Source: Mycobacterium sp. MS1601
GTDB taxonomy: Bacteria; Actinomycetota; Actinomycetes; Mycobacteriales; Mycobacteriaceae
Length of the DNA: 64,000 nt
Direction: 5' to 3'
Assembly: GCF_001984215.1 (NCBI RefSeq)
Contig: NZ_CP019420.1
Coordinates: forward strand, 248,001 to 312,000
The notes under the pieces were generated by a model. The model worked only from the letters and a program-made list of their open reading frames with translations, was not told where the DNA came from and did no database searches. Made by a program: the position numbers and the translations under genes. How positions within the stretch are numbered: the first letter of the stretch is position 1; every line of letters starts with the position of its first letter. Of the stretch, positions 1,300 through 16,454 are shown in pieces.

Positions 1300-2664
1300 A
1301 TGACCAACACACTTCCGGCCCGGTCCGAATCTGGTGTAGGGCTGCAAAAGCACAAACGCACTGCCACCGATATCGGCCTGGCGCTCATCACACCGCTGGT
1401 CGGCCAAGAATTCCTCGACCGCTACCATCTCCGCGATCCGCTCAACCGCGGCCTGCGGCTGGGCGTCAAGACGGCGTTCTCCGCCGCGGGTGCGTCCACC
1501 AGGCAGTTCAACCGCATCCAGGGTCTCGGCAAACCGCCCACCCGGCTCAAGTCCAGCGGAGCCAACTACTTCGACCTCACCCCCGATGACGATCAGAAGA
1601 TGATCGTCGAGACGGTCAACGAGTTCGCCGAAGAGATCTTGCGCCCCGCCGCTCACGATGCCGATGCCGCCGTCACCTACCCCAAGGATCTGGTGGCCAA
1701 AGCGGCTGAGCTGGGTGTCACCGCGATCAACATCCCCGAGGATTTCGACGGGATCGCCGCGCACCGGGCCACAGTCACCAACGCCCTGGTGGCCGAGGCG
1801 CTGGCCTACGGCGACATGGGACTGGCGCTGCCCATCCTGGCGCCCAGCGGTGTTGCCGCCGCGCTCACCCATTGGGGCAGCGCCGATCAGCAGGCCACCT
1901 ATCTCAAGGAGTTCGCGGGCGAGAGCGTGCCGCAGGCCTGCCTCGCCATCGCCGAGCCGCGGCCGCTGTTCGATCCCACCGCGTTGAAGACCACCGCGGT
2001 GCGCACCCCCAGCGGCTACCGCATCGACGGAGTGAAGTCTTTGGTGCCGGCCGCCCTCGACGCCGAATTATTCATTGTGGCAGCACAATTGAACGGCAAG
2101 CCGGCCATGTTCATCGTGGAGGCCGCCACCTCGGGTGTCACAGTCACCCCGGATCCCAGCATGGGTATCCGTGCAGCCGCACTCGGCAAAGTGGAGTTCG
2201 ATCACGTGAGCGTGCCGCTCAGTGCCCGCCTCGGCGAGGACGAGGCCACCGACGCGGACTATTCCGAGGCCATCGCCCTGTCCCGACTGGGCTGGGCCGC
2301 GCTAGCCGTCGGCACGTCGCACGCGGTGCTCGACTATGTGGTGCCCTACGTCAAGGAACGACAGGCCTTCGGCGAACCCATCGCGCGCCGCCAGTCGGTG
2401 GCCTTCATGTGCGCCAACATCGCCATCGAACTCGACGGCCTGCGACTGATCACCTGGCGCGGCGCCGCGCGCGCCGAGCAGGGCCTACCGTTCGCCCGCG
2501 AGGCCGCACTGGCCAAGAAACTGGGCGCCGACAAGGGCATGCAGATCGGCCTCGACGGCGTGCAGTTGCTCGGCGGCCACGGCTACACCAAGGAACACCC
2601 GGTCGAGCGCTGGTACCGCGATCTGCGGGCACTGGGCGTCGCCGAGGGTGTCGTGGTTCTGTAA
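1300..2664 (+). CDS. fadE24: acyl-CoA dehydrogenase FadE24
   Basis: This 454-residue flavoprotein shows the acyl-CoA dehydrogenase order: an alpha-helical N-terminal domain, a central beta domain with the substrate/FAD loop (LAIAEPRPLFDPTALKT near residues 210-225) and a C-terminal helical domain with QLLGGHGYTKEHPVERWYRDLR. It would oxidise an acyl-CoA to the 2-enoyl-CoA in the cytosol. It has an N-terminal extension of about 80 residues, as in mycobacterial FadE24. The gene is followed after 13 bp by fadE23, and in mycobacteria these two form an operon; many mycobacterial FadE proteins act as heteromers. The C-terminus ends in GVAEGVVVL instead of the usual EGT-x-x-I-Q signature, so activity may depend on its partner. 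Confidence 0.85.
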   Translation: MTNTLPARSESGVGLQKHKRTATDIGLALITPLVGQEFLDRYHLRDPLNRGLRLGVKTAFSAAGASTRQFNRIQGLGKPPTRLKSSGANYFDLTPDDDQKMIVETVNEFAEEILRPAAHDADAAVTYPKDLVAKAAELGVTAINIPEDFDGIAAHRATVTNALVAEALAYGDMGLALPILAPSGVAAALTHWGSADQQATYLKEFAGESVPQACLAIAEPRPLFDPTALKTTAVRTPSGYRIDGVKSLVPAALDAELFIVAAQLNGKPAMFIVEAATSGVTVTPDPSMGIRAAALGKVEFDHVSVPLSARLGEDEATDADYSEAIALSRLGWAALAVGTSHAVLDYVVPYVKERQAFGEPIARRQSVAFMCANIAIELDGLRLITWRGAARAEQGLPFAREAALAKKLGADKGMQIGLDGVQLLGGHGYTKEHPVERWYRDLRALGVAEGVVVL

Positions 2665-2677
2665 AGGAGACTTGAAC

Positions 2678-3889
2678 ATGGCGATCAATCTGGAAATGCC
2701 CAAGAAGTTGCAGGCGGTCATCGAGAAGGGCCACCAGGGCGCAGCCGAGATGCTGCGGCCGATCTCGCGCAAATACGACTTGAAAGAACACGCTTACCCG
2801 GTCGAACTGGACACTCTGGCAGACCTTTTCGAAGGGATCTCAGAGGCCAAGACCATCTCGTTCGCCGGAGCGGATGCCTTCCGCGGCACGGACGGTCCCA
2901 AAGAGAACGTCAACGGCGCCAACATGTCCGCACTGTTGAACGCTCTTGAGATTGCCTGGGGTGACGTCGCCTTGCTGCTGTCGGTGCCGCGCCAGGGCCT
3001 GGGCAACGCCGCCATCTCGTCGGTGGCCACCCCGGAGCAGCTCGAACGGCTCGGGACCGACGTGTGGGCAGCGATGGCAATCACCGAGCCGGGCTTCGGC
3101 TCCGACTCCGCCGCAGTGTCCACCACCGCCAAACTCGATGGTGACGAGTACGTCATCAACGGTGAGAAGATCTTCGTCACGGCCGGCTCGCGCGCCACGC
3201 ACATTGTGGTGTGGGCGACGCTGGACAAGTCACTGGGCCGGGCGGCCATCAAGAGCTTCATCGTGCCGCGGGAGCACCCCGGTGTCATTGTCGAGCGCCT
3301 CGAACACAAGCTGGGCATCAAGGCCTCCGACACTGCGGTGATCCGGTTCGACAACGCGCGCATTCCCAAGGACAACCTGCTCGGCAGCCCGGACATCCAG
3401 GTGGAGAAGGGTTTTGCCGGGGTCATGGAGACCTTCGACAACACCCGCCCCATTGTCGCAGCCATGGCCGTGGGCGTGGCCCGCGCCGCGTTGGAGGATC
3501 TGCGCACCATCCTCACCGAGGCCGGTATCGAGATCTCCTACGACAAACCGGCACACGCCCAGAGCGCTGCCGCCGCGGAGTTCCTGCGCATGGAGGCCGA
3601 CTGGGAATCCGGTTATCTGCTGACCGTGCGCTCGGCATGGCAGGCGGACAACAAGATCCCCAACTCCAAAGAAGCGTCCATGGGCAAGGCCAAGGCCGCC
3701 AGGGTGGCCAGCGACATCACCCTCAAGGCCGTCGAAATGGCCGGCACCGTCGGCTATTCCGAGGAAGCGCTCTTGGAGAAGTGGGCTCGCGACTCGAAGA
3801 TCCTGGACATCTTCGAGGGCACCCAGCAGATCCAGCAGTTGGTGGTGGCACGCCGTCTGCTCGGGATGACCTCCGCAGAGCTCAAGTAG
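2678..3889 (+). CDS. fadE23: acyl-CoA dehydrogenase FadE23
   Basis: This 403-residue acyl-CoA dehydrogenase begins at ATG 2678, chosen because a strong AAAGGAGA lies 7-8 bp upstream; an earlier in-frame start would overlap fadE24. Family signatures are present: AITEPGFGSDSAA (FAD/substrate loop), the beta-domain VINGEKIFVTAGSRA, and the C-terminal DIFEGTQQIQQL that carries the catalytic glutamate region. It presumably forms an alpha/beta complex with FadE24 and shares its promoter and operator. The natural acyl substrate is not readable from the sequence. Confidence 0.88.
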   Translation: MAINLEMPKKLQAVIEKGHQGAAEMLRPISRKYDLKEHAYPVELDTLADLFEGISEAKTISFAGADAFRGTDGPKENVNGANMSALLNALEIAWGDVALLLSVPRQGLGNAAISSVATPEQLERLGTDVWAAMAITEPGFGSDSAAVSTTAKLDGDEYVINGEKIFVTAGSRATHIVVWATLDKSLGRAAIKSFIVPREHPGVIVERLEHKLGIKASDTAVIRFDNARIPKDNLLGSPDIQVEKGFAGVMETFDNTRPIVAAMAVGVARAALEDLRTILTEAGIEISYDKPAHAQSAAAAEFLRMEADWESGYLLTVRSAWQADNKIPNSKEASMGKAKAARVASDITLKAVEMAGTVGYSEEALLEKWARDSKILDIFEGTQQIQQLVVARRLLGMTSAELK

Positions 3890-3952
3890 CGGAAGTCCAT
3901 CGGGCGTCGACGCCGCTGATGGCCACTGCGAGCACGACGTGACGATGCCTCG

Positions 3953-4825
3953 CTACGAACCGGTCGGCCGACCCGCCTCGTCCAGCTCTGCTCTGGTCGC
4001 GTCATCGACGACGATCCCGGCAACCGCGAGATTCTGCTCGAGGTGCCCGGGTGACGACGTACCAGGAATCAGCAGCACGTTCGGGGCGACACCCAACGTC
4101 CAGGACAGCGCGACCTGCGCGGGTGTGCAGTCCAGTTCCGCGGCGGCACGACGGATCACAGCATTGCCCAGCACCGGATTGTCCTGCGCGAAGGCCGATC
4201 CCAACGGGAAGAACGGGACAAAGGCGATACCGCGGGCCACACATTCGTCGAGCACCGGTTGGGAACTGCGGTCCACCAGGTTGTACGGATTCTGCACGCA
4301 GGCGATCTCGGTGTGTGCTGCCGCATGCACCAGATGCGAGGCCTCGATGTTCGACAGCCCGATGCCGCCGATCAGCCCGTCATCACGGGCAGCGATCATC
4401 ACCGCCAGCTGGTCGTCGAACAACGCGTCGGGACCGGGGCTCTCAGTCAACCGCAGGTTCACCGCGGCCAGTTGCTCCACTCCGAGACTACGGAGGTTGT
4501 CCTCGATGCCGGTGCGCAGCTCCGCCGGATCGTTCACCGGCAGCCACGCGCCTTGGTCGTCACGGCGACCACCGACCTTGCTCACCAGCGCCAGATTCGA
4601 CGGATACGGGTGCAGCGCTTCGCGAATCAGCGCGTTGGCGACGTCCGGCCCGTAGTACTGAGCGGTGTCGATGTGGTCAACGCCGAGCTCGACGGCCTTG
4701 CGCAGCACGGCGATCGCCCCGTCGTGATCGCGCGGGGGGCCGAACACACCAGGCCCCGGCAGTTGCATGGCACCAAAACCGACCCGGTGAACGTCGAATT
4801 GCCCCAGGGGAAAGCGATCGCTCAT
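3953..4825 (-). CDS. aldo/keto reductase
   Basis: The 290-residue product is a TIM-barrel aldo/keto reductase. The catalytic Asp and Tyr sit in DHIDTAQYYGPD and the Lys in ALVSKVGG. The usual catalytic His of the strand-4 motif is replaced: AAVNLRL stands where many family members have xxLxxLH, as in YdbC-like members. The NADPH-binding end is visible as SSPGHLEQNL. The ATG start at 4825 directly follows the stop of the upstream reductase gene (TGAGATG), so the two are co-transcribed and probably translationally coupled. Substrate unknown. The gene is convergent with fadE23. Confidence 0.8.
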   Translation of the reverse strand: MSDRFPLGQFDVHRVGFGAMQLPGPGVFGPPRDHDGAIAVLRKAVELGVDHIDTAQYYGPDVANALIREALHPYPSNLALVSKVGGRRDDQGAWLPVNDPAELRTGIEDNLRSLGVEQLAAVNLRLTESPGPDALFDDQLAVMIAARDDGLIGGIGLSNIEASHLVHAAAHTEIACVQNPYNLVDRSSQPVLDECVARGIAFVPFFPLGSAFAQDNPVLGNAVIRRAAAELDCTPAQVALSWTLGVAPNVLLIPGTSSPGHLEQNLAVAGIVVDDATRAELDEAGRPTGS

Positions 4826-4826
4826 C

Positions 4827-5834
4827 TCAGAATCCGTTCTCGACGACAACGCGGGTGCGACCGGTGACACCACCACCGACGATGGATCCGAGTACGTCGG
4901 GCACGTCCAGCACCGCGACATCCCGGGTGACCCGGTCCAGGTGCAACGGGAACAGCTCGGTTTCGAGCTGTTGCCAGATGGCCCGCCGCGCTTCGATGTC
5001 CAGTTGCACGGAGTCGATACCGGCCAGAGTCACCCCGCGAAGGATGAACGGGAGCACGGAGGCAGGCAGATCGGCGGATCCGGCCAGTCCTGAGATTGCC
5101 GCGACACCACCGTATTTCAGTGTGCTCAGTGCATATGCCAGTGTCGTCCCGCCAACACAGTCCACCACCGCAGCCCACCGCGCCTTGCCCAGCGGACGCA
5201 GCTTCTCCTCAGGCGCGGGCACCCGGTCGATCACCTCCGCTGCGCCCAGGTCACGCAGCAGGTCGTACCCGTCGGGTTTGCCGGTGGAGGCCACCACCTC
5301 GTATCCCAACCCCGACAGCAGGTCGACGCTGACGCAGCCCACTCCCCCGGTGGCTCCGGTGACGAGTACCGGGCCGTCGCCCGGGGCAACCCAGTGCGCC
5401 CTCAGTGCGTTGACACTCATTGCGGCGGTGAAGCCCGCGGTGCCGATCGCCGCCGCCTGTGCCGCGGTGAGACTGTGCAGCTTCACCACGTAGTCGGCCG
5501 GATATCGAGCCAACGCGGAGTACCCGCCGTGGCGGCCCGTGCCGATGTCATAACCGTGTGCCACCACGGTGTCGCCGACAGCGAAGTCCGGTGAACTGCT
5601 CGCCGCCACCGTGCCCGCGACATCGATGCCGGGGATCAGTGGATACGACCGGGCAACACCACCTTTCGGCATCACCGCCAGCGCATCCTTGTAGTTCACC
5701 CCCGAATACTCCACTGCTATCAGCACCTCACCCTCGGGGAGCGCCGAAACGGGCAGCACCTCGTGCCGCAACACGATGCCGCCTTCGGCGTCCTGGTGGG
5801 CGACCAATGCGTCGAACTCATCCAACTGGGTCAT
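4827..5834 (-). CDS. zinc-independent MDR oxidoreductase, AcuI/YhdH-like
   Basis: A medium-chain reductase of about 335 residues in the YhdH/YhfP quinone-oxidoreductase subfamily, which includes AcuI, the NADPH-dependent acryloyl-CoA reductase. Visible marks are GVNYKDALAV, PLIPGIDVAGTV and the Rossmann loop VTGATGGVGCVSV; structural zinc cysteines are lacking. The start is ambiguous: ATG 5834 gives MTQLDEFDALVAHQD and ATG 5846 adds four residues. It heads a two-gene minus-strand unit with the aldo/keto reductase and is divergent to the dioxygenase operon across about 200 bp, so both directions could respond to the palindrome at 5989-6008. The acryloyl-CoA role is an inference from family. 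Confidence 0.78.
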   Translation of the reverse strand: MTQLDEFDALVAHQDAEGGIVLRHEVLPVSALPEGEVLIAVEYSGVNYKDALAVMPKGGVARSYPLIPGIDVAGTVAASSSPDFAVGDTVVAHGYDIGTGRHGGYSALARYPADYVVKLHSLTAAQAAAIGTAGFTAAMSVNALRAHWVAPGDGPVLVTGATGGVGCVSVDLLSGLGYEVVASTGKPDGYDLLRDLGAAEVIDRVPAPEEKLRPLGKARWAAVVDCVGGTTLAYALSTLKYGGVAAISGLAGSADLPASVLPFILRGVTLAGIDSVQLDIEARRAIWQQLETELFPLHLDRVTRDVAVLDVPDVLGSIVGGGVTGRTRVVVENGF

Positions 5835-5963
5835 GCCCTCGATCATGCACCTCGCGGTGCGCAGGCCCTGAACCGGCACGGTATGACGCCGGCGCCGAGC
5901 AGCGCCCCCTGGGTGTGCCTCGACAAGAGTCCTTCCTGCGGCACGCGACGGGGCCTGATTTTC

Positions 5964-6029
5964 TTGACAGCTGTTGACCGTGGCGCAGAAGTGAAGTTAA
6001 CGTCACTTTTAGCCGACGTCCGACAGGAG
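5964..6029 (+). promoter_or_regulatory. promoter, 20-bp palindromic operator and RBS of the dioxygenase operon
   Basis: The core is a near-perfect 20-bp palindrome, AAGTGAAGTT/AACGTCACTT (5989-6008, 9 of 10 pairs match). Just upstream are -35-like hexamers TTGACA (5964-5969) and TTGACC (5974-5979), so the palindrome would overlap the -10 region. AGGAG (6025-6029) is the ribosome binding site of the ATG at 6037. The likely ligand is the TetR protein encoded inside the operon at 10474. Confidence 0.6.
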
Positions 6030-6036
6030 TAACCCG

Positions 6037-7140
6037 ATGGAGTCGTTTACTCACCTTCGCAAAGGCATCACCCCCCGGCGCCTCCACGCCGACCTCGACG
6101 GCCTCAAAGACGACGAACTCGGACGCGGCGGCTTCGCCGGCCGCACCGCCCTCATGTACCGCCGCCACGACCCCACCGCCTTTCGGTCAGTCGGCCCATT
6201 GCGCCCCATCGATGTGCTGTCCGACGAATTGAAACCCAGCGACGCCACCGACGCCGACGGTGGGCCGATGTTGTTGTTCTCCAATGCCGATTGCCGCATC
6301 TACCTGTCACGGCGCAGTGCGCAGATGCCGTACTTCGCCCGTCACGTCGACGGCGACCTGCTGTGCTTCGTACACAACGGAACGGGACGACTGGACACGG
6401 AGTTCGGACCGCTGACCTACCGCGCCGGCGACTGGGTGTACCTACCGAAAGCCTGTACGTGGCAGCAGCGTCCGGACTCCGAGACCACACTGCTGATGAT
6501 CGAGGCCACCGACGAGTTCCGGGTGCCCCCGCCGGGACCACTGGGACGACACTTCCCATTCGATCCATCCCAGGTTGTCATCCCGGAGCCCGCACCCGTC
6601 GAAACGGGCGACGGCCCGCAGAAAGACGGAGAGTACCGGGTGCGCCTCATCCACGAGGGTGGCCCGACGACGCTGTTCTACCGGCACAACCCGCTCGACG
6701 TCGTGGGCTGGCGTGGCGACAATTTCGCGTTCACGTTCAACATCGAGGACTACAACGTCATCACCTCCGACAGTGTGCACCTCCCCCCGACGGTCCATCT
6801 CTTCATGCAGGCCAGCGGCGTCCACGTGATGAACTTCCTGCCCAAACCCGCCGAGGGTGTGCCGGGCACCGAACGCACACCCTGGTACCACCGCAATGTG
6901 GACTTCGACGAGATCGCGTTCTTCCACGGCGGCTCGCTGTACGGAACCCCCATGCCACCTGGGCTTCTGAGCCATGCCCCACAAGGTGTGCACCACGGCG
7001 CGCCGGAGAAGGCCCGCGAACGTGCCCGCCGCAAGTTCGACGACTTCACGAAGGTGGACTGGAAGGTGATCGCCATCGACACCCGGCGCCGCCTGGTGCC
7101 CTCGGCCGAGGTGCTCAGCCACGATCTGGGACAGCACTGA
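6037..7140 (+). CDS. homogentisate 1,2-dioxygenase-like cupin protein
   Basis: This 367-residue protein reads as a member of the homogentisate dioxygenase family, a double cupin with Fe(II), but is shorter than the usual 430-440 residues. The C-terminal metal region is recognisable: WYHRN (H285), then DFDE (D291/E292), then GVHHGAPE. In classical enzymes the iron Glu is six residues after the His; here that position is Asp291, with Glu292 one step later, so the ligand set may be altered. It opens the operon at 6.0-13.6 kb and is followed after 1 bp by the hydrolase gene. Ring cleavage of an aromatic hydroquinone is a reasonable guess, but homogentisate itself is unproven because no fumarylacetoacetase or maleylacetoacetate isomerase is nearby. 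Confidence 0.7.
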   Translation: MESFTHLRKGITPRRLHADLDGLKDDELGRGGFAGRTALMYRRHDPTAFRSVGPLRPIDVLSDELKPSDATDADGGPMLLFSNADCRIYLSRRSAQMPYFARHVDGDLLCFVHNGTGRLDTEFGPLTYRAGDWVYLPKACTWQQRPDSETTLLMIEATDEFRVPPPGPLGRHFPFDPSQVVIPEPAPVETGDGPQKDGEYRVRLIHEGGPTTLFYRHNPLDVVGWRGDNFAFTFNIEDYNVITSDSVHLPPTVHLFMQASGVHVMNFLPKPAEGVPGTERTPWYHRNVDFDEIAFFHGGSLYGTPMPPGLLSHAPQGVHHGAPEKARERARRKFDDFTKVDWKVIAIDTRRRLVPSAEVLSHDLGQH

Positions 7141-7141
7141 G

Positions 7142-8374
7142 GTGTCACACAGCTACAACCGGATTCCGTATCTGATTGCCTATCAGAACACTTCGGCAGT
7201 GCGCGATGTCTACGGCGGTGTGGCCGAGCTGGTGGTGCTGGAGAGTTATCTGCTCAAGCCCGAGAAGCCGTCGGATACCGTCTTGGTGTTCATGCACCCC
7301 ATCGGTGGCGGCGCCTACCTGCCGATGATCAACGCCCTGGCCCGCGCCGGACACCATGTCATCTACTGCAACAGCCGGTTTCGGGGCACCGACTCCGCGC
7401 TGCTGATGGAGAAGGTGGTCGAAGACCTCGGCGAATGCATCAAGGACGCCAAGAATCGGCTGGGGTACCCCAAGGTGGTGCTGGCCGGCTGGAGCGGCGG
7501 CGGCTCACTGTCGGTGTTCTATCAGCAGCAGGCCCGCACGCCGACGGTGACCGCGAGCCCCTCGGGCGACGGCCCGGATCTGACCCAGCTGGGGCTGATC
7601 CCCGCCGACGGCATCATGCTGCTGGCGGCGCACATCAGCAGACACGGCACGCTGACCGAATGGCTGGACGCCTCGATCCTCGATGAGTCCGACCCTGGCA
7701 ACCGCGACCCGGAACTGGATCTCTACAACCCGGACAATCCGAACCAGCCGCCGTACACCGGGGAGTTTCTCGACCGCTACCGCAACGCGCAGATCGCGCG
7801 TAATCGTCGCATCACCGCCTGGGTGAAAGCCAAACTGGCAGAACTGAAGGCCCACGGCCGTGACGACGACGAATTCGCGTTCGTCGTGCACGGCACCATG
7901 GCAGACCCGCGTTGGCTGGATCCCGCCGTCGACCCCAATGAACGCGAACCGGGCACCTGCTACCTGGGTGACCCCAGCGTGGTGAACATGAGCCCGGTGG
8001 GCCTGGCGCGGTTCTGCACCCTGCGCAGCTGGCTGTCGCAGTGGAGTTATGACGACGCCAACGGCGACGCGGTGAAGGCCGGGCCCGATATCGACGTGCC
8101 CACCCTGGTGATCGGCAACCTCGCCGACGACGCCTGCACCCCGAGTCACACCCGCCGGCTTTTCGAGGCCATCGGGCATCCGGACAAAGAGATGCACGAG
8201 ATCCCCGGTGCCAATCACTACTACGCCGGGCCCACCCAGCGTGAGACGCTACGACAGGCAGTCGGCGTGTGTTCTGACTGGCTACACCGACACGGTTTCT
8301 CGCAGGAGGTCCAGATGACACGTGCCCACCAGCGAGAAGCGCCAGGCACCAGCGAGGGAGCGGATCGGGCATGA
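7142..8374 (+). CDS. alpha/beta hydrolase
   Basis: A 410-residue alpha/beta-hydrolase fold protein. The oxyanion loop is HPIGGG (residues 52-57), the nucleophile is S118 in GWSGGGS, and the late histidine is H359 in GANHYYAG; an acid residue lies in LADDACTP shortly before it. The fold includes a large insert between strand 6 and the cap. The GTG start at 7142 sits 1 bp after the dioxygenase stop, and the gene ends in an ATGA overlap with the CoA-transferase. In this context it probably hydrolyses a ring-cleavage product, lactone or thioester, but the substrate is not identifiable. Confidence 0.78.
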   Translation: MSHSYNRIPYLIAYQNTSAVRDVYGGVAELVVLESYLLKPEKPSDTVLVFMHPIGGGAYLPMINALARAGHHVIYCNSRFRGTDSALLMEKVVEDLGECIKDAKNRLGYPKVVLAGWSGGGSLSVFYQQQARTPTVTASPSGDGPDLTQLGLIPADGIMLLAAHISRHGTLTEWLDASILDESDPGNRDPELDLYNPDNPNQPPYTGEFLDRYRNAQIARNRRITAWVKAKLAELKAHGRDDDEFAFVVHGTMADPRWLDPAVDPNEREPGTCYLGDPSVVNMSPVGLARFCTLRSWLSQWSYDDANGDAVKAGPDIDVPTLVIGNLADDACTPSHTRRLFEAIGHPDKEMHEIPGANHYYAGPTQRETLRQAVGVCSDWLHRHGFSQEVQMTRAHQREAPGTSEGADRA

Positions 8375-9573
8375 ACGCAGGCGCACTGGACGGTATACGC
8401 GTTCTGGAGGTCGGCACGCTCATCTCGGGGCCGTTCGCCGGTCGGCTGCTCGGCGACATGGGCGCCGAGGTCATCAAGATCGAGCCGCCCAACGCGCCGG
8501 ATCCGTTGCGCACCTGGGGGCAGGCCGAGCTCGACGGACACCGATTCTTCTGGGCTGTGCACGCCCGCAACAAGAAGGCCGTCACCCTTGACCTGCGCAC
8601 CGACGCCGGCCGCGAATTGTTCCTCGAACTCGTCGACTGCAGTGACATCATCGTGGAGAACTTCAGACCCGGCACGCTGGAACGCTGGAATCTCGGCTAC
8701 GACGTACTGCACGCCCGAAACCGCGGCATCATCCTGGTGCGAGTATCCGGTTATGGACAGACCGGGCCCGACGCCCATCGCGCCGGTTATGCCTCTGTTG
8801 CCGAGGCTGCCAGCGGACTACGCCATCTCAACGGCTTTCCCGGCGGCCCGCCACCCCGGCTGGCGCTCTCGTTGGGCGACAGCCTGGCCGGAATGTTCGC
8901 CGCCCAGGGTGCACTTGCCGCCCTGTACCGGCGCACCGTCACCGGCGAAGGTCAGGTGGTGGACACCGCTCTCACCGAATCCTGCTTGGCTGTACAGGAA
9001 TCCACCATTCCCGACTATGACATCGGTGGTGTGGTGCGTGGCCCGTCCGGCACCCGACTAGAGGGCATCGCGCCATCCAACATCTACCGCAGCGCCGACG
9101 GCAGCTGGGTGGTGATCGCCGCCAACCAGGACACCGTGTTCCGCCGGTTGTGCGCGGCGATGGGACAACCGGAGCTCGCAGGAGATGACCGCTTCGTCGA
9201 CCACGGCGCCCGCGGACGCAACCAGGACGAGCTGGACAAGCTGATCGGCGACTGGGCCGCGCAGCGCCAACCGGACGACATCATTTCGATCCTCTCGGAG
9301 GCCGGCGTGATCGCCGGTCCCATCAACACCGTGGCCGAGGTGGTAAACGACCCCCAACTGCGGGCCAGAGGAATGCTGGTGGAGCACTGGGATGACCGGG
9401 TGCAGCGGACCGTGCTGGGCCCCGGCGTGGTGCCGGTGCTCTCCGAATCTCCCGGCACCGTGCGCTATTCGGGATCCTCGCATCCCGGCCAGCACAATAC
9501 CGAGATCTATGCAGACCTGTTGGGCCGCTCAGCCGGGGAACTGGATCAGTTGAAGGCCGAGGGCGTGCTGTGA
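8371..9573 (+). CDS. CaiB/BaiF family (class III) CoA-transferase
   Basis: This 400-residue protein carries the family hallmarks. The N-terminal VLEVGTLISGPFAGRLLGDMG and the GAEVIKIEPP nucleotide-loop motif are intact, and the catalytic aspartate is D170 in LGDSLAGMFA, which forms the aspartyl-CoA anhydride. It would transfer CoA between carboxylic acids and so activate the acid made by the two upstream enzymes. The start overlaps the hydrolase stop by 4 bp and the end overlaps the HMGL-like gene by GTGA, so the three are translationally coupled. Donor and acceptor are unknown. Confidence 0.88.
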   Translation: MNAGALDGIRVLEVGTLISGPFAGRLLGDMGAEVIKIEPPNAPDPLRTWGQAELDGHRFFWAVHARNKKAVTLDLRTDAGRELFLELVDCSDIIVENFRPGTLERWNLGYDVLHARNRGIILVRVSGYGQTGPDAHRAGYASVAEAASGLRHLNGFPGGPPPRLALSLGDSLAGMFAAQGALAALYRRTVTGEGQVVDTALTESCLAVQESTIPDYDIGGVVRGPSGTRLEGIAPSNIYRSADGSWVVIAANQDTVFRRLCAAMGQPELAGDDRFVDHGARGRNQDELDKLIGDWAAQRQPDDIISILSEAGVIAGPINTVAEVVNDPQLRARGMLVEHWDDRVQRTVLGPGVVPVLSESPGTVRYSGSSHPGQHNTEIYADLLGRSAGELDQLKAEGVL

Positions 9574-10471
9574 CCGCCGATCACGTCACCATCAGGGAGG
9601 TCGCATTGCGCGATGGCCTGCAGATCGAGGCGCCCATCCCCTTGACCGCCAAGATCGAACTGCTGGAGGCCATAGTGGCCACCGGTGTCCGCGAAATAGA
9701 GGCCACCGCGTTTGTCTCCCCAGCAAGGTGCCTGCGCTGGCCGACGCCCCGGAGCTGGCGGCCGTACTCGCGGATTTTGGTGACGCCGTGGAATTCTCAG
9801 CCCTGGTGGCCAGCCCCAACGGCGCCAAACGCGCCATCGCGGCCGGGCTCGGCACCATCGAGTACGTGGTGTCCGCGGCCGATGCACACAGCCGCGCCAA
9901 CGTCGGCCGCAGCACGGCCGAGGCCAGCGCACACATCCCGGAGATCGTCGCCATCGCCCACGACAACGGAGTCCGCGTCGAGGTCATCGTCGCCACCGCC
10001 TGGGACTGTCCGTTCGACGGACCCACCACGCCCGAACGCGTGCTGGGAGTGGTCACCGCGGCGACGGCCGCGGGCGTGGACAGGCTGGCCATAGCCGACA
10101 CCATCGGCACCGCCACACCACGCCGGGTCGCTGCTCTGATCGACTACCTGCACCCGGTCGTGGGTGCCCTGCCATTGGGCGCCCATTTCCATAACACCCG
10201 CGGAGCCGGCCTCGCTTGCGCCTACGCCGCCATCGGTGCCGGAGTCACCCGCCTGGACGCTTCCGTTGGTGGGCTGGGTGGCTGCCCGTTTGCGCCCGGC
10301 GCCAGCGGCAACATCGCCACCGAGGATCTGGCATATTTGCTGCGCGACAGCGGGATTCCCACCGATGTCGATCTGCCCGCAGCTATCGCCGCTGCCGCGG
10401 TGGCCCAGCGGCTGGTGGGTCATGAGCTGCCCAGCGCCCTGCTGCGCGCCGGCGACCGGATTCTGGCCTGA
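9570..10471 (+). pseudogene. HMG-CoA lyase-like gene interrupted by a -1 frameshift
   Basis: The first part (9570-9721, from a GTG overlapping the CoA-transferase stop) encodes the start of an HMGL-family TIM barrel, including VTIREVALRDGLQ with the catalytic Arg-Asp. The rest (about 9722-10471) is in another frame and contains HFHNTRG, the metal histidines, and GGLGGCPFAPGASGN, the catalytic Cys loop. Adding one C to the four-C run at 9718-9721 restores FVSPSKVPALADAPEL and one continuous protein of about 300 residues. All catalytic motifs survive, so the break is recent or a sequencing or assembly error. If intact, it would cleave a 3-hydroxy-3-methyl-glutaryl-type CoA ester into acetyl-CoA and a keto acid. 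A separate start at GTG 9728 could give the C-terminal piece. Confidence 0.82.
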
Positions 10472-10473
10472 CA

Positions 10474-11082
10474 GTGCCGGCCGCGCTGACCCCCAAGGGC
10501 ATACAGACCAAGGCCGCGATTGCCCAGGCTGCTCGGAAACTGTTCGCCGAACGTGGTTTCCATGCCACCACGCTGGCTGACATCACCGCAGCCGCAGGGA
10601 AGTCAGCCGCAGCGTTCTACCGGTACTTCGACGACAAGGAAGACCTGCTCGCGACGCTTGCCGAGTCGTTCCTGCAATACGTGGTCCAACCCTCCGATAT
10701 CGGGCTGCCCCACTCCCCCGACGACAGCGAGTTCTTCACCTCTGCCGTCACCGGCTACTGGAAAATGTTCAAGCAGAACATCGGCATCATGGTGGCCGTC
10801 GACCAGCTGGCCGCCGGGCAACCGCGGTTTGCGGACGTGCAGAACGAGTTCCGGCGCTTCGGCATGGACATCGTCCGGGCCACGGTGCTGCAGGCCCAGC
10901 AGCAGGGTTACGGCACCGACCTCGACCCCGACCACATCGCCCTGGCCGTCGCGCTGCTGTTCGAACAGTTCACCACGGTGTATCTGCGAGCAGACGCCGC
11001 CGCGCTGGGCGTGCGGACCGATGACCGGGACGCCGTCCGCACCCTGGCCACCATCTGGAAGAAGACCCTGTACGGCCATTGA
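10474..11082 (+). CDS. TetR family transcriptional regulator
   Basis: A 202-residue TetR protein with a standard N-terminal helix-turn-helix: AARKLFAERGFHATTLADI, then AGKSAAAFYRYFDDKEDLL at about residues 35-60. The C-terminal ligand domain is helical and not assignable. The gene starts with GTG two bases after the HMGL-like stop and lies inside the catabolic operon, so it probably acts on the operon's own promoter, where the palindrome at 5989-6008 is the best site. The ligand may be a CoA-ester intermediate of the pathway; that is inference. Confidence 0.85.
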   Translation: MPAALTPKGIQTKAAIAQAARKLFAERGFHATTLADITAAAGKSAAAFYRYFDDKEDLLATLAESFLQYVVQPSDIGLPHSPDDSEFFTSAVTGYWKMFKQNIGIMVAVDQLAAGQPRFADVQNEFRRFGMDIVRATVLQAQQQGYGTDLDPDHIALAVALLFEQFTTVYLRADAAALGVRTDDRDAVRTLATIWKKTLYGH

Positions 11083-11102
11083 GTTCCAGAGAGGAAATCA
11101 AC

Positions 11103-12344
11103 GTGGATTTCACCCTGCCGGATCACCTTCCGGGAGTTCTCGCCGAGATGGACGCGTTCATCGAGGCAGAGATCAAGCCGCTGGAGCGCGAGAACATGCA
11201 GTACTTCGACCGGCGGCGCGAGTTCGCCAGGACCGACCTCGACAACGGAGGCGTACCGGCCAGGGAATGGGAAGATCTGCTCGACGAGATGCGCCGTCGC
11301 GCCGACAAGGCCGGCTGGTTGCGGTATGGCCTGCCCTCGCGGTTCGGCGGTGGCGGCGCCAGCAACCTGGACATGGCGGTGATCCGGGAGCATTTGGCGC
11401 ACAAGGGTTTGGGGTTGCACAACGACCTGCAGGACGAGTCGTCGATCGTCGGAAACTTCCCTCAGGTCATCATGATGGACCGGTTCGGAACCGAAGCCCA
11501 GAAAGCGGACTGGATCGAGGCGATGTTGACCGGCAACCGGTCCATGGCGTTCGGGCTCACCGAACCCGATCACGGTTCGGACGCCACCTGGTTGGCGACC
11601 ACGGCGGAACTTCGCGGGAACGAGTGGGTGATCAACGGTGCCAAGCGGTGGAACACCGGCGTGCATCGCGCCACTCACGATCTGGTGTTTGCCCGCACTG
11701 CCGGTGAAGCCGGCCAGGCTGTAGGCATCACCGCGTTCCTGGTGCCCACCGACACACCCGGGTTCGACGTGCCTTACTACTGGTGGACGTTCAACATGCC
11801 AAGCGATCACGGCGAGGTGACCCTGACCGACGTCCGGGTACCAGCCGACGCGGTCCTCGGCGAGGTGGACCACGGCCTCGAAGTAGGCCAGACCTTCCTG
11901 CATGAAAACAGGATTCGCCAAGCTGCCAGCAGCCTGGGCGCGGCCCAGTACTGCCTCGACCGGGCTGCCGCCTACGCGGGTGAACGGGTGGTGTTCGGTA
12001 AACCGCTGGCGGTGAACCAGGCCGTGCAGTGGCCGCTGGCCGAGTTGCAGACCGAAGCGCAGATGGTGCGACTGCTGGTGTATTACGCGGCATGGCATCT
12101 CGATCGCAATCACCACATGGAGGTGTCGGACATAGTGTCGATGGCGAACTATCGCGCCAATCGGTTGGTATGCGAGGCCGCTGACCGTGCCATGCAGATC
12201 CACGGCGGTGTCGGCTACAGCAGGCACGAACCGTTCGAACACATCTATCGTCACCACCGCCGATACCGAATCACCGAGGGAACCGAGGAGATTCAGATTC
12301 GCCGGGTGGCGCAGCGCATGCTCAAGTTCGGGTCCCGTCGGTGA
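11103..12344 (+). CDS. acyl-CoA dehydrogenase (LvaC/ACAD10-11-like)
   Basis: This 413-residue acyl-CoA dehydrogenase has GLTEPDHGSDATWLATTAE (FAD loop), VINGAKRWNTG in the beta domain and RITEGTEEIQIRRVAQRM at the C-terminus. GTG 11103 is preferred because GAGAGGAAA lies a few bases upstream; a TTG at 11079 would overlap the regulator. It is directly followed, with a GTGA overlap, by an APH-type kinase and then a small DUF6285-like protein. In ACAD10/ACAD11 the same kinase and dehydrogenase domains are fused, and in the levulinate pathway LvaC works with LvaA/LvaB. A role in eliminating phosphate from a phosphorylated hydroxyacyl-CoA is therefore likely. Confidence 0.85.
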   Translation: MDFTLPDHLPGVLAEMDAFIEAEIKPLERENMQYFDRRREFARTDLDNGGVPAREWEDLLDEMRRRADKAGWLRYGLPSRFGGGGASNLDMAVIREHLAHKGLGLHNDLQDESSIVGNFPQVIMMDRFGTEAQKADWIEAMLTGNRSMAFGLTEPDHGSDATWLATTAELRGNEWVINGAKRWNTGVHRATHDLVFARTAGEAGQAVGITAFLVPTDTPGFDVPYYWWTFNMPSDHGEVTLTDVRVPADAVLGEVDHGLEVGQTFLHENRIRQAASSLGAAQYCLDRAAAYAGERVVFGKPLAVNQAVQWPLAELQTEAQMVRLLVYYAAWHLDRNHHMEVSDIVSMANYRANRLVCEAADRAMQIHGGVGYSRHEPFEHIYRHHRRYRITEGTEEIQIRRVAQRMLKFGSRR

Positions 12345-13312
12345 ACACGGGGGCGCTCGCCGACGTGCTGCGCCCGGTCGTCGGCGAGGTGACGGTCCAG
12401 GATCTGACGACGCTCACCGGCGGCGCCAGCCGCACTACGTGGGCGTTCACCGCCGTATCTGAGGACACGAGAAGGGCGCTGATACTCCGTTGCGGGCCAC
12501 CGGATGACGTGCGCGCCGGAATGGAGCTCGAAGCTCGAGTGCAGTCGTTGGCCGCCGCCGCCGGAGCGCCGGTTCCGGAGATCCTGGCCGCCGATGACTC
12601 CGCCGCGGCGTTGGGCAGTCCGTATCTGATCTGCGGCGCCATCGCCGGTGAGACCGTCGTGCGGCGCATCCAACGCAGCCTCGATGATGCCGGGCGTGCC
12701 CAGTTGCTGCGCCAGTGCGCAGCCGCGCTGGCCGCCATCCACCGGGTGGACCCGGCCGACGCACACCTGCAGCCGCGGGATCCGCTGACGCAGTGGCGCC
12801 ACCAGCTCGACGAGATCGGCGACACCACAGCAACATTCGAGTGGGCCCTGCGCTGGTTGGAGCGCAACAGACCCCCGGCTACCGGCACCACCCTGGTGCA
12901 CGGCGACTTCCGGATGGGCAACCTCATCGTCGACATCGATGGAGGCACCGGCCTGGCCGCGGTGCTGGACTGGGAACTGGTGCATTGCGGCGAGATCTAC
13001 GAGGATCTGGCGTGGTTCTGTGTACGGGCCTGGCGGTTCGGGGCTCCACCCGCATTGGCGGCCGGCGGACTGGGCAGTATCGAGGACCTCCTCCGGGCCT
13101 ATGAACAGCAGGCCGGCATGGTGCTCGACCGGGACACGTTCCGGTGGTGGCTGGTGCAGGCCACCCTGCAATGGGGCATTATCTGCCGCTACCAGGCACA
13201 GCGGCACCTGTCCGGACAGAACCCTTCGGTGGAGCTGGCCACGATCGGACGGCGGGTCTGTGAGAACGAATGGGATCTGCTCGAACTCCTCGACACCGGG
13301 TTGGGCGCATGA
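12341..13312 (+). CDS. APH-type phosphotransferase, putative hydroxyacyl-CoA kinase (LvaA-like)
   Basis: This 323-residue protein has the aminoglycoside-phosphotransferase/choline-kinase fold. The catalytic loop is LVHGDFRMGNLIVD (HGDxxxxN) and the metal aspartate follows in AVLDWELVHCGEIYEDLAWF. Proteins of this subfamily beside acyl-CoA dehydrogenases correspond to the kinase domain of ACAD10/ACAD11 and to LvaA, which phosphorylates 4-hydroxyacyl-CoA. It overlaps the dehydrogenase gene (GTGA) and the next gene (ATGA), so the three are made together. Antibiotic resistance is unlikely in this context. The exact hydroxyacyl substrate is unknown. Confidence 0.8.
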   Translation: MNTGALADVLRPVVGEVTVQDLTTLTGGASRTTWAFTAVSEDTRRALILRCGPPDDVRAGMELEARVQSLAAAAGAPVPEILAADDSAAALGSPYLICGAIAGETVVRRIQRSLDDAGRAQLLRQCAAALAAIHRVDPADAHLQPRDPLTQWRHQLDEIGDTTATFEWALRWLERNRPPATGTTLVHGDFRMGNLIVDIDGGTGLAAVLDWELVHCGEIYEDLAWFCVRAWRFGAPPALAAGGLGSIEDLLRAYEQQAGMVLDRDTFRWWLVQATLQWGIICRYQAQRHLSGQNPSVELATIGRRVCENEWDLLELLDTGLGA

Positions 13313-13641
13313 CAGGTCTGTACGGCCGTCCCACCGCCGCCGAACTCGTCGCCGCCGTGGCCGACTTCCTCGACGGTGATGTTCGCGAGGCCACCACCGG
13401 TCAGGTCAACTTCCACGCGCGCGTGGCAGCCAATGCCCTGCGAATGGTGTGGCGCGAACTGCTGTCTTGTGACGCCGCCAAGGTGCTCGAGGCGCTGCAG
13501 GAGCTCGGCTACCCCGATGAGGCCGAACTGGCCGCGGCCATCCGCCGCGGTGAACTCGACGACAGACCCCAGGAGGTGTCGGACACCCTGCGGATACTGG
13601 TGGCACACCGAGTCGACGCCGCCCACCCCGGGTACCGATGA
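13309..13641 (+). CDS. DUF6285 / LvaB-like small kinase-partner protein
   Basis: A 110-residue, mostly helical soluble protein. The N-terminal pattern RPTAAELVAAVADFLDGDV, followed by NFHARVAANALRMVWREL, matches my memory of DUF6285 proteins encoded next to APH kinases. Size and position correspond to LvaB, the small subunit LvaA needs for activity in the levulinate pathway. ATG 13309 overlaps the kinase stop. I infer that it binds or activates the kinase at 12341; nothing in it looks catalytic. Confidence 0.7.
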   Translation: MTGLYGRPTAAELVAAVADFLDGDVREATTGQVNFHARVAANALRMVWRELLSCDAAKVLEALQELGYPDEAELAAAIRRGELDDRPQEVSDTLRILVAHRVDAAHPGYR

Positions 13642-14853: not shown

Positions 14854-14875
14854 CACAGTGACGGGAGCTGACGGC

Positions 14876-15235
14876 ATGAACGTCTACACGCCCATCCTGG
14901 TTCTCGGTGCCATTGCCGCTGCGTTCGCCGTGGTGTCGGTGGGGATCGCGTTGGTGATCGGGCCGCGTCGGTTCAACCGGGCCAAGTTGGAGGCCTACGA
15001 GTGCGGGATCGAACCGGCTCGCCAGCCCATGGGTGCGGCGCGGTTTCCGGTGAAGTTCTATCTGACGGCGATGCTGTTCATCGTTTTCGACATCGAGATT
15101 GTCTTTTTGTATCCGTGGGCGGTGTCCTTCGATCAGCTGGGGATGTTCGCCCTGGTGGAGATGCTGCTTTTTATGGCGACGGTGTTTGTGGCCTATGCCT
15201 ACGTATGGCGGCGAGGTGGTCTGGAATGGGATTAG
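14876..15235 (+). CDS. nuoA: NADH-quinone oxidoreductase subunit A
   Basis: This 119-residue membrane subunit of complex I has three hydrophobic helices and the conserved quinone-site loop YECGIEP near residue 40. ATG 14876 is chosen over GTG 14858 because GGGAG lies 8 bp upstream and the protein then begins [11 protein letters not shown] like other mycobacterial NuoA. It opens the 14-gene operon; the nuoB start lies inside its 3' end. Confidence 0.95.
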
Positions 15236-15780
15236 AAGAACAGTTGCCTGGCGGGATCCTGCTCTCGACGGTGGAGAAGGTGGCCGGTTTTGTGCGTAAG
15301 GGGTCGTTGTGGCCGGCGACGTTCGGGTTGGCGTGCTGTGCCATCGAGATGATGGCGACTGCGGGGCCGCGTTTTGATATTGCGCGTTTTGGGATGGAGC
15401 GGTTTTCGGCGACGCCGCGGCAGGCGGATCTGATGATCGTGGCGGGGCGGGTGTCGCAGAAGATGGCTCCGGTGTTGCGGCAGGTGTATGACCAGATGGC
15501 CGAGCCCAAATGGGTTCTGGCCATGGGCGTTTGCGCATCGTCCGGCGGGATGTTCAACAACTACGCGATCGTCCAGGGCGTCGATCATGTGGTGCCCGTC
15601 GACATCTACCTCCCCGGGTGCCCACCACGGCCGGAGATGCTGTTGCACGCGATCCTCACGCTGCACGCCAAGATCGCCGAGATGCCGTTGGGGGTGCATC
15701 GCGATGAGGTGGTGGCCGCAGCCGAGAAAGCGGCCCTGAACGCCAGACCCACCATCGAACTGACCGGGTTGCTGCGATGA
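15226..15780 (+). CDS. nuoB: NADH-quinone oxidoreductase subunit B
   Basis: The 184-residue peripheral-arm subunit that binds cluster N2, the last iron-sulfur cluster before quinone. The ligands C37-C38, C103 (GVCASSGG) and C132 (PGCPPRP) are all present. ATG 15226 overlaps the nuoA stop by 10 bp, and the length equals the mycobacterial norm. The gene ends in an ATGA overlap with nuoC. Confidence 0.96.
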
Positions 15781-16454
15781 CGGACAAAGAGATGTCGGAC
15801 AGGGAGGTGATCGGCGTGCGCCGCGGCATGTTCGGCGGCTCCGGCACCGGTGACACCTCCGGCTACGGTCGGCTGATCCGCGAGGTCGCCCTACCGGGCG
15901 GCTCACCGCGCCCCTACGGCGGCTGGTTCGACGAGGTGGTGGACCGACTCGCAGAAGCACTGGGCGCCAACGTCTTCGCCGAAGCCGTGCACCGGGTGGT
16001 GGTCTACCGCGCCCAGCTCACCCTCGACGTCGACCGCTCCCGGCTACCGGTCGTCGCGCAGACGTTGCGCGACGACCCGCACCTGCGCTTCGAATTGTGC
16101 TCCGGGGTCTCCGGGGTGCACTACCCGCAGGATGCCGGGCGGGAGTTGCGTGCGTTCTATCCGTTGATGTCGATTACTCACAATCGGCGTCTGCAGCTGG
16201 AAGTTGCGTGTCCGGATGCTGATCCGCATGTGCCGTCGCTGTTTTCGGTGTATCCCACGGTGGACTGGCATGAACGTGAGACCTACGACTTCTTCGGCAT
16301 CATCTTCGACGGCCATCCCGCGTTGACCCGCATCGAGATGCCTGATGACTGGGTGGGACACCCCCAGCGCAAGGACTACCCCCTTGGTGGGGTGCCGGTG
16401 CAGTACCACGGCGCCACCATCGCACCACCGGATCAGCGGAGGTCCTACACATGA
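15777..16454 (+). CDS. nuoC: NADH-quinone oxidoreductase subunit C
   Basis: A 225-residue hydrophilic subunit of the 30-kDa family. The signature [16 protein letters not shown], followed by [11 protein letters not shown], is intact. The subunit packs against NuoD near the quinone site. Its first 60 residues are a mycobacterial-type variable extension. It overlaps both nuoB and nuoD by 4 bp. Confidence 0.95.

Follow-up and report, generated by a model that had tools for sequence, protein, structure and literature searches.

The window, 64,000 nucleotides of Mycobacterium sp. MS1601, contains a set of eight genes that is conserved in mycobacteria and apparently undescribed so far, and we give an even chance to the reading that it forms a TetR-containing catabolic operon, which combines cleavage of an aromatic ring and hydrolysis with CoA transfer, phosphorylation of a hydroxyacyl-CoA and a step by an acyl-CoA dehydrogenase from a poorly known class with a glutamate base (Glu class). 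As described in an earlier note on this DNA, the genes at 6037-13641 overlap or nearly touch, by 4 bases or at distances of 1 to 20, all on the plus strand (Table 1). The family assignments of that note were recovered by Pfam for all eight genes; the broken frame of the lyase gene, of which the C-terminal piece only matches HMGL-like, had been overlooked. All eight genes are found in one order in 73/73 named mycobacterial loci that extend far enough (321 loci were found and 80 named ones kept, the remaining 7 being cut by contig ends), while a cupin match at E 1e-90 is present in 220 of the 248 genomes of the genus. The strong co-occurrence for which a neighbourhood survey had been suggested is evident. 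Chance clustering of the eight genes was rejected on the identical order at these loci. Literature searches on the enzyme set, the kinase and a tocopherol/hydroquinone route yielded no description that we recognised as this operon.

Table 1. Genes of the eight-gene operon with their positions in the window and the evidence for their assignment.
Feature	Position	Strand	Evidence
Homogentisate-1,2-dioxygenase-like Fe cupin, 367 aa	6037..7140	+	Pfam HgmA_N, HGD matches in PDB, ligands, AlphaFold model
Alpha/beta hydrolase, 410 aa, putative triad S118/D329/H359	7142..8374	+	Pfam, triad alignment, cupin neighbourhood
Class III CoA-transferase, 400 aa	8371..9573	+	CoA_transf_3 (PF02515), 401.9 bits; NCBI models
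HMG-CoA-lyase-like gene, frame broken	9570..10471	+	Two pieces, both matching NCBI PRK05692
TetR-family regulator	10474..11082	+	PF00440, 61 bits
Acyl-CoA dehydrogenase, Glu class, 413 aa, base E392	11103..12344	+	Pfam, residue columns, trees
LvaA-type kinase, APH fold, 323 aa	12341..13312	+	PF01636 (APH), 124.4 bits; tree, motifs
LvaB/DUF6285 small subunit, 110 aa	13309..13641	+	DUF6285 (PF19802), 71.7 bits (cut-off 28.1)

The cupin is likely an aromatic-ring-cutting enzyme. Its HgmA_N domain (PF20510) scores 31.9 bits against a Pfam cut-off of 20.2, the three matches among PDB sequences at E 0.001 are all homogentisate 1,2-dioxygenases (HGD), and so are the top 11 PDB matches of its AlphaFold model (mean pLDDT 75, residues 1-36 below 50) with TM scores by query of 0.65-0.69, the other 39 listed reaching at most 0.40. 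Aligned to HGD, residues H285, E292 (or D291) and H320 are invariant across 21 sequences; these we take to be the His-Glu-His iron ligands, with their identities transferred from HGD, and a candidate catalytic histidine is located near position 248. While fold, ligands and the PF20510 domain are those of HmgA, the 367-residue cupin scores 49.2 bits with the homogentisate-dioxygenase equivalog TIGR01015, far under its cut-off of 510.75, has an alpha/beta hydrolase as partner and belongs to a genus in which the enzymes that precede and follow homogentisate cleavage in tyrosine breakdown, HPPD and fumarylacetoacetase (FAH), exceed their cut-offs in 0/25 genomes (its own plus 24, 3 of them less than 90% complete), with weak sub-cut-off matches for HPPD in 25/25 and for FAH in 24/25. 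The tyrosine/homogentisate pathway was rejected on these counts. As a homogentisate gene cluster is reported for M. abscessus in PMC2694998, the pathway is not missing from the entire genus.

Cupin and hydrolase genes lie together at 30/30 orthologous loci, of which one has a dehydrogenase gene between the two and one a split match. Against PDB sequences the hydrolase obtained weak matches alone, mostly to lipases, and its putative triad is invariant in 8 aligned sequences including one of Rhodococcus opacus at 39%. Next to this pair an HpaB-type hydroxylase is encoded upstream in 4 loci of other genera and an HsaA-like monooxygenase nearby in locus L046. The earlier proposal that the cupin opens a ring and the hydrolase acts next is plausible with respect to fold, ligands and triad. 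HpaB surpasses its cut-off in only 2/19 genomes of the genus, hence a hydroxylase partner is not general among mycobacteria. The R. opacus plasmid pRop44186_a also carries a cupin gene (about 29-30%) next to a hydrolase gene (about 39-41%), but in a hydroxycinnamate-type cluster with a monooxygenase and a different CoA-transferase, and with no kinase annotated across the 21-kb stretch.

At the other end of the operon, the kinase and the small protein belong, as judged from sequence, with LvaA and LvaB. The kinase aligns pairwise with LvaA of the lva operon at 162 bits versus 78 bits with an ACAD11-like kinase of its own genome, and groups with LvaA and DUF6285-linked kinases in a clade of 22 of the 34 tree rows (support 97/99), a midpoint-rooted placement in which the long-branch row own_L196 also falls within the clade and from which 2 of 36 kinases (d_L209, d_L045) had been dropped by the stop/length filter. 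Its motifs HGDFRMGN at 187 and LDWE at 209 correspond to HGDxxxxN and DWE, the catalytic motifs of APH kinases (PMC12440821). The probable role of the kinase is to mark a hydroxyl group that is then removed. That the 110-residue protein is LvaB-like, as anticipated, is borne out by the Pfam family it shares with annotated LvaB (85.3 bits for the latter), although the direct pairwise match is weak (21.9 bits, E 0.003). The structure-based search put forward in addition returned 0 Foldseek matches at E 0.001 for the model (five predicted helices, pLDDT 86.7, pTM 0.55), a comparison with PDB sequences 0 matches up to E 10 and a literature search on DUF6285 no papers. At 8/12 loci with a kinase-DUF6285 pair no dehydrogenase was found in the fetched stretch, and in Variovorax (L227) the pair is accompanied by an ordinary dehydrogenase outside the Glu and Asp classes. 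A haloarchaeal small protein has no DUF6285 match, and the haloarchaeal kinase, nearly equidistant from LvaA (83 bits) and the ACAD11-like kinase (76 bits), is therefore not called LvaA-type.

The dehydrogenase, with the motifs HENRIRQAASS (267) and YRHHRRYRITEG (382), possesses the base E392 where ACAD11 has D753, while R626, H634 and R637 of ACAD11 are replaced by F, Q and S in this protein and in 19/20 other members of the class, and by F, Q and G in the twentieth. These residues bind the phosphate in ACAD11 and nonconservative substitutions there are the most disruptive, according to PMC12440821. The protein is placed outside the Asp clade in a separate clade at 100/100 support; the two classes are sisters (99/95) in a 39-row tree that sets them against 6 ordinary dehydrogenases only. 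This last dehydrogenase tree was built without the two upstream dehydrogenases, a row from Massilia and duplicate rows. Identity with LvaC was rejected on base, phosphate-site residues and clade. From the LvaA/LvaB/LvaC-type module claimed earlier, kinase and small protein consequently stand, whereas the role of the dehydrogenase as a phosphate eliminator of the LvaC/ACAD10/ACAD11 type does not.

That the genes encode LvaABC proper after all, the kinase making a 4-phosphoacyl-CoA and the dehydrogenase eliminating phosphate as LvaC, ACAD10 and ACAD11 do, would agree with the presence of LvaAB, the adjoining dehydrogenase and the sister relationship in the tree, but is quite unlikely in view of the glutamate in place of the catalytic aspartate, the exchange of all three sensitive phosphate-site positions and the best PDB matches, which are ordinary dehydrogenases (185 bits versus 129 bits for ACAD11). 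We also consider it unlikely that an ordinary dehydrogenase resides near the kinase by chance and performs alpha-beta oxidation of a CoA ester, with an Asp-type enzyme from elsewhere eliminating the phosphate. Its glutamate base is canonical and the same genome encodes three or more Asp-type dehydrogenases, with kinase genes next to two of them and ACAD11-like kinase-dehydrogenase pairs away from the operon, yet a kinase gene is close to the Glu-class gene in 16/20 other loci from Actinomycetota, Pseudomonadota and haloarchaea (in 11/15 where the dehydrogenase alone prompted retrieval; the remaining 4/20 have no strong kinase match nearby), compared with a total of 22 APH matches over the 6.83 Mb of the genome. 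Among plasmid records 12 have a Glu-class dehydrogenase, 6 of which were read. As the enzyme is devoid of any ACAD11 phosphate-site residue, it is adjacency only that suggests that the kinase feeds it.

In another reading, the genes for aromatic ring cleavage and those of a hydroxyacyl module of the fatty-acid type would be co-regulated in one operon without forming one pathway. Each half is also seen by itself, with cupin and hydrolase but no kinase-dehydrogenase module in the stretch at L046-L061 and with the module but no cupin at L209, L217, L228 and L230; 16/30 orthologous cupin-hydrolase loci lack the kinase module in the fetched stretch, the TetR gene lies between the halves, and the dehydrogenase is encoded in 21/169 family genomes outside the genus without a close cupin. 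Kinase and Glu-class dehydrogenase are a separable module that recurs without ring-cleavage genes. Sulfitobacter pontiacus is among the carriers of the kinase, DUF6285 protein and Glu-class dehydrogenase, while M. aurum has the complete operon and M. vaccae its first six genes up to a contig end. Two unconnected functions are nevertheless quite improbable given that the eight genes stay together, ends touching, at every one of the 73 loci and that 14/17 family genomes outside the genus with a close cupin have the dehydrogenase, although mostly at a separate locus (Fisher p 3e-9, with related genomes not independent and the counts being lower bounds, as the best 9 candidates per genome were scored here and the best 5 in one other search).

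The reading of a single catabolic pathway can be extended. A second lineage of kinase-coupled dehydrogenases, distributed across bacteria and haloarchaea, might accept a phosphorylated or kinase-processed acyl-CoA in an active site that is distinguished from that of LvaC/ACAD10/11 by its Glu base, by N/R/Q on the helix of the active site and by an HHRRYR cluster, and mycobacteria might have built it into a new aromatic pathway of HGD-type ring cleavage, C-C hydrolysis, phosphorylation-dependent hydroxyl removal and an HMG-CoA-lyase-type cut; both together fall somewhat short of an even chance. While the sequences directly show how the genes are ordered, how well this order is conserved, to which families the proteins belong and which residues line their active sites, we infer substrate, reaction order and activities as follows. 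The HGD-type Fe(II) dioxygenase would, by fold, ligands and neighbours, open a hydroquinone- or homogentisate-like ring supplied from a source other than the tyrosine pathway, the alpha/beta hydrolase would stand in for fumarylacetoacetase and cut the product of ring fission, and the class III CoA-transferase would load CoA onto an acid product, probably a dicarboxylate. By homology, the LvaAB-type kinase would then phosphorylate the hydroxyl of the acyl-CoA, on which, in what is the least certain step, the Glu-class dehydrogenase may act to remove or bypass the hydroxyl with its active site unlike that of LvaC and ACAD10/11, before the HMG-CoA-lyase-like enzyme would carry out the last retro-aldol cut. 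Tocopherol-type substrates, with a hydroquinone ring and a 4-hydroxy acid side chain, are an idea only.

Compared with the lva operon for levulinate catabolism in Pseudomonas, the LvaA-clade kinase, the DUF6285/LvaB subunit and an adjoining dehydrogenase are alike, whereas the Glu-base dehydrogenase without the phosphate site, the absence of an LvaD/LvaE-type gene from the eight and the added ring-cleavage genes differ. With ACAD10/ACAD11 of mammalian 4-hydroxy acid catabolism the operon shares the logic of kinase plus dehydrogenase, but its kinase, with a separate small subunit, is of another clade and its dehydrogenase lacks the catalytic aspartate as well as R626/H634/R637. The LvaAB kinase is thereby uncoupled from LvaC chemistry, and a single family of kinases seems to work with dehydrogenases of two classes. 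Knowing what the Glu class does with the kinase product would tell whether bacteria and archaea in general make use of phosphate tagging of hydroxyacyl-CoAs, and a widespread mycobacterial operon gains a testable role in the breakdown of some aromatic compound, perhaps by a new route.

The NCBI models closest to the CoA-transferase are of the dicarboxylate type, with 249 and 214 bits to the succinate-glutarate and succinyl-CoA:mesaconate CoA-transferase models, both sub-cut-off. The lyase gene that follows is frameshifted, with an N-terminal piece at 9570-about 9719 and a C-terminal piece at 9728-10471 in another frame. The HMGL-like Pfam match of 114.6 bits comes from the C-terminal piece, and both pieces match one NCBI subfamily model, PRK05692, with 38 and 211.5 bits (cut-off 246). 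The C-terminal piece was found at 95/110 relative loci, some genomes being entered twice, and 95/95 carry both pieces in one open frame. The TetR gene behind it sits between the ring-cleavage half and the kinase-dehydrogenase half.

The eight genes of the operon overlap or nearly touch, as the earlier note had described; they lie on one strand, neighbours overlapping by 4 bases or standing 1–20 bases apart. What seems new is that a kinase of known type is paired with a dehydrogenase falling short of every NCBIfam cut-off, in a pathway without description in the literature searched. That literature does not mention DUF6285, and no account of the enzyme set was recognised in it, which agrees with the earlier remark that no described pathway is known to have this set and does not prove absence from print.

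Located features; positions within the operon's window unless another sequence is named, gene families by Pfam and NCBIfam
Feature	Sequence	Position	Strand	Content
Upstream dehydrogenase genes	window	1300-3889		two adjacent acyl-CoA dehydrogenase genes
Reductase-like gene	window	4827-5879	-	acrylyl-CoA-reductase-like
Operon	window	6037-13641	+	HgmA_N cupin, alpha/beta hydrolase, class III CoA-transferase, HMG-CoA-lyase-like, TetR, acyl-CoA dehydrogenase, APH kinase, DUF6285
Downstream genes	window	14858-16454		NADH dehydrogenase chain 3 and 30-kDa subunit
Kinase-dehydrogenase pair, ACAD11/LvaC type (L204)	MS1601, G000:C1	2.744 Mb
Kinase-dehydrogenase pair, ACAD11/LvaC type (L205)	MS1601, G000:C1	5.213 Mb
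Plasmid locus (L225)	Paracoccus aestuarii plasmid	1498-7256		Asp-type dehydrogenase, LvaA-clade kinase, short DUF6285 gene
Plasmid cupin (L218)	Mycobacterium avium plasmid pP7a	11983-13095		47% identical cupin, annotated homogentisate 1,2-dioxygenase

Kinase and small protein were compared with the lva operon on a Pseudomonas plasmid in which LvaB is annotated; the original lva paper is reportedly that of Rand in 2017. The DUF6285 model is matched by both LvaB (85.3 bits) and the window protein (71.7 bits), which places them in one family as had been proposed, the pairwise alignment being poor (21.9 bits, E 0.003). The window protein, the sole DUF6285 match of its genome, has an all-helical predicted structure and found no match in the PDB by sequence or by that model. 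The kinase aligns with a DUF6285-associated Thermus kinase at 174 bits, with LvaA at 162 and with the ACAD11-like kinase of its own genome at 78, and in a tree of 34 kinases it groups with LvaA and DUF6285-linked kinases (97/99), separate from the ACAD11-like ones, which upholds its likeness to LvaA. At four plasmid loci (L223, L224, L226, L232) a gene of the histidine phosphatase family lies directly 3' of DUF6285, its product perhaps being a partner phosphatase.

One study assigns to ACAD11 the use of Asp 753 and the holding of the phosphate by R626, H634 and R637, from a modelled complex and mutation (PMC12440821), and another agrees on the catalytic Asp and unites LvaC-like bacterial enzymes with ACAD10/11 in one subgroup (PMC11342911). 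The window dehydrogenase carries Glu in place of Asp 753 and F, Q and S at the three phosphate sites and falls into a separate tree group, so that its assignment to the LvaC/ACAD10/ACAD11 type has to be given up. It scores 129 bits to ACAD11 versus 185 to an ordinary dehydrogenase of the PDB; an ACAD11-like dehydrogenase (438 bits to ACAD11) is encoded elsewhere in the genome beside its own kinase. Polar side chains at the ACAD11 phosphate site or close to it (Q at 634, R at 633 and an HHRRYR stretch before the base, shared by the whole Glu class) suggest that the window enzyme may take a polar substrate.

By its sequence, the window dehydrogenase is a member of a class of its own, with close matches in at least 34 of 345 class genomes, at least 50 of 201 family genomes and 12 of 72,556 plasmid records. 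The 20 further loci compared come from every one of the 11 matching class genomes that do not belong to the genus and from six plasmid records out of the 12, with L217, L209 and L045 added; the Glu base and the motif IYRHHRRYRITEG occur in each, and the phosphate-site columns give F, Q, S at 19 loci, L272 having F, Q, G. A kinase gene scoring at least 200 bits to a query kinase lies within 0.9 kb in 16 of the 20, a count that includes self-matches, as three query kinases were taken from these loci. The operon had first led to L045, and a kinase or DUF6285 gene to L217, L209, L228 and L230; of the 15 loci picked up for the dehydrogenase alone (L269–L283), 11 have the kinase. Given 22 APH matches in the 6.83 Mb MS1601 genome, chance adjacency of kinase and dehydrogenase is put, as a rough estimate, at about 1 in 100. 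No kinase match was found near the dehydrogenase in L272 and L273, and those of L280 and L282 are weak (57–68 bits) and 1 to 2 kb off. DUF6285 is also recognised in 13 of the 16 kinase-bearing loci, among them L274, where it and the kinase are both divergent and a TetR gene intervenes. The remaining three are haloarchaeal plasmids (L269–L271) with a protein of 157–159 residues that gave no DUF6285 match. Acetoacetate-decarboxylase-like and hydantoinase/oxoprolinase-like genes stand beside the set in L269 and L271.

A dehydrogenase tree of 39 rows recovers both classes as single groups, Glu with 21 rows (100/100) and Asp with 12 (100/99), and joins them as sisters (99/95) against six ordinary dehydrogenases. 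The small outgroup makes this sister pairing provisional, and it is not favoured by the PDB scores of the window enzyme. An LvaA-clade kinase of Variovorax (L227) adjoins an ordinary dehydrogenase outside both classes.

All three PDB sequences matched by the cupin are homogentisate dioxygenases, which are also, by a wide margin, the top matches of its predicted structure (mean pLDDT 75, first 36 residues poor). In the cupin the iron-ligand positions of these enzymes are filled by H285, E292 (or D291) and H320, which do not vary across 21 sequences with identities as low as 27%; the score is tenfold short of the equivalog cut-off. The hydrolase has a putative triad (S118, D329, H359) kept in 8/8 aligned sequences. 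A role of the cupin in ordinary tyrosine breakdown is unlikely in MS1601, because 4-hydroxyphenylpyruvate dioxygenase and fumarylacetoacetase, the flanking steps, are over cut-off in none of 25 genus genomes, its own included (three less than 90% complete; weak matches below cut-off are common for both); in other genomes of the order they reach it in 12/16 and 8/16, respectively. Mycobacterium abscessus is an exception, with a homogentisate cluster described as acquired from other bacteria (PMC2694998).

In other genera (L055, L057, L058, L060) an HpaB-type hydroxylase (about 170 bits to the HpaB-1 model, under cut-off) and an acyl-CoA dehydrogenase precede the cupin-hydrolase pair; in L046 an HsaA-like monooxygenase (226 bits, under cut-off) lies nearby on the opposite strand; a Rhodococcus opacus plasmid has the pair inside a hydroxycinnamate-type cluster; and in L055 the CoA-transferase, lyase and TetR genes stay with it, no kinase module being present in the stretch. 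These neighbourhoods suggest that the ring to be cleaved is that of a hydroxylated aromatic. HpaB_N is over cut-off in two of 19 genus genomes, which makes it doubtful that mycobacteria generally pair the operon with a hydroxylase; MS1601 is one of the two, with three copies, none adjoining the operon. The plasmid cupin L218 is clustered with P450s, aldehyde dehydrogenases and a mycofactocin-coupled reductase, its stretch giving no hydrolase match.

The neighbourhood survey that the earlier note called for found that the set co-occurs. Among 80 named loci, kept from 321 found and belonging to mycobacteria in the broad sense or to MAGs labelled so or as Actinomycetes, 73 show the complete set in one and the same order (one gene with a doubled match in two of them) and seven stop at a contig edge. 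A close cupin (E < 1e-150) occurs in 31 of 201 family genomes, 14 of the 15 in the genus and 17 outside it. At E 1e-90 a larger genus sample gave 220/248, at least six of these matches being weaker (4e-95 to 1.5e-125) and possibly fragments or paralogues, and a phylum sample only 5/296, all within the family. Of 30 orthologous loci inspected, 14 have the full set, one in another genus; 16 keep cupin and hydrolase together (the hydrolase match split in L050, a dehydrogenase gene intervening in L055), no kinase or DUF6285 gene being found in the stretch, for which reason the pair looks like the older core of the operon.

What the sequences show is gene content, order, families and residues; the most likely route inferred from them would begin with ring opening, go on through hydrolysis, CoA transfer, phosphorylation of a hydroxyacyl-CoA and a step by the Glu-class dehydrogenase, and end with a retro-aldol cut. 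Against this route stand the broken lyase gene of this genome, the finding that the two halves of the operon also occur apart, and kinase-DUF6285 pairs whose fetched stretch gave no dehydrogenase: in 12 further Actinomycetota loci, drawn from 21 genomes with DUF6285 hits, a related kinase adjoins in 12/12, and a dehydrogenase was detected in only four stretches, about 7 kb off in one. That the two halves serve different substrates is improbable. The survey of family genomes made this reading, already doubtful, slightly less probable, since the Glu-class dehydrogenase is present in all 15 genus genomes and, outside the genus, in 14 of the 17 that carry a close cupin versus 21 of the 169 that do not (Fisher p 3e-9, which overstates the case as many of these genomes are closely related). 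The two halves thus travel together even where they are not neighbours. On a Paracoccus aestuarii plasmid (L225) a homogentisate dioxygenase and an lva-like module are close together in another lineage: annotated hmgA and fahA are followed downstream by two toxin-antitoxin genes and, just past these, by the module.

The lyase-like gene belongs to the family named earlier and is not whole, a break that the earlier note had missed: residues 3–52 in one frame and 1–241 in another match consecutive parts of one NCBI model. The C-terminal piece was recovered at 95 of 110 relative loci (some genomes occurring twice), with both pieces in one open frame in 95/95, so that the frameshift appears, as far as seen, private to this assembly, through either an assembly error or recent loss.

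The two upstream dehydrogenase genes lie near the operon in 52/80 and 59/80 named loci and, with the reductase-like gene, form what we take to be the mycobacterial FadE24/FadE23/FadB4 neighbourhood, while the NADH dehydrogenase genes downstream place the operon in front of the nuo locus.
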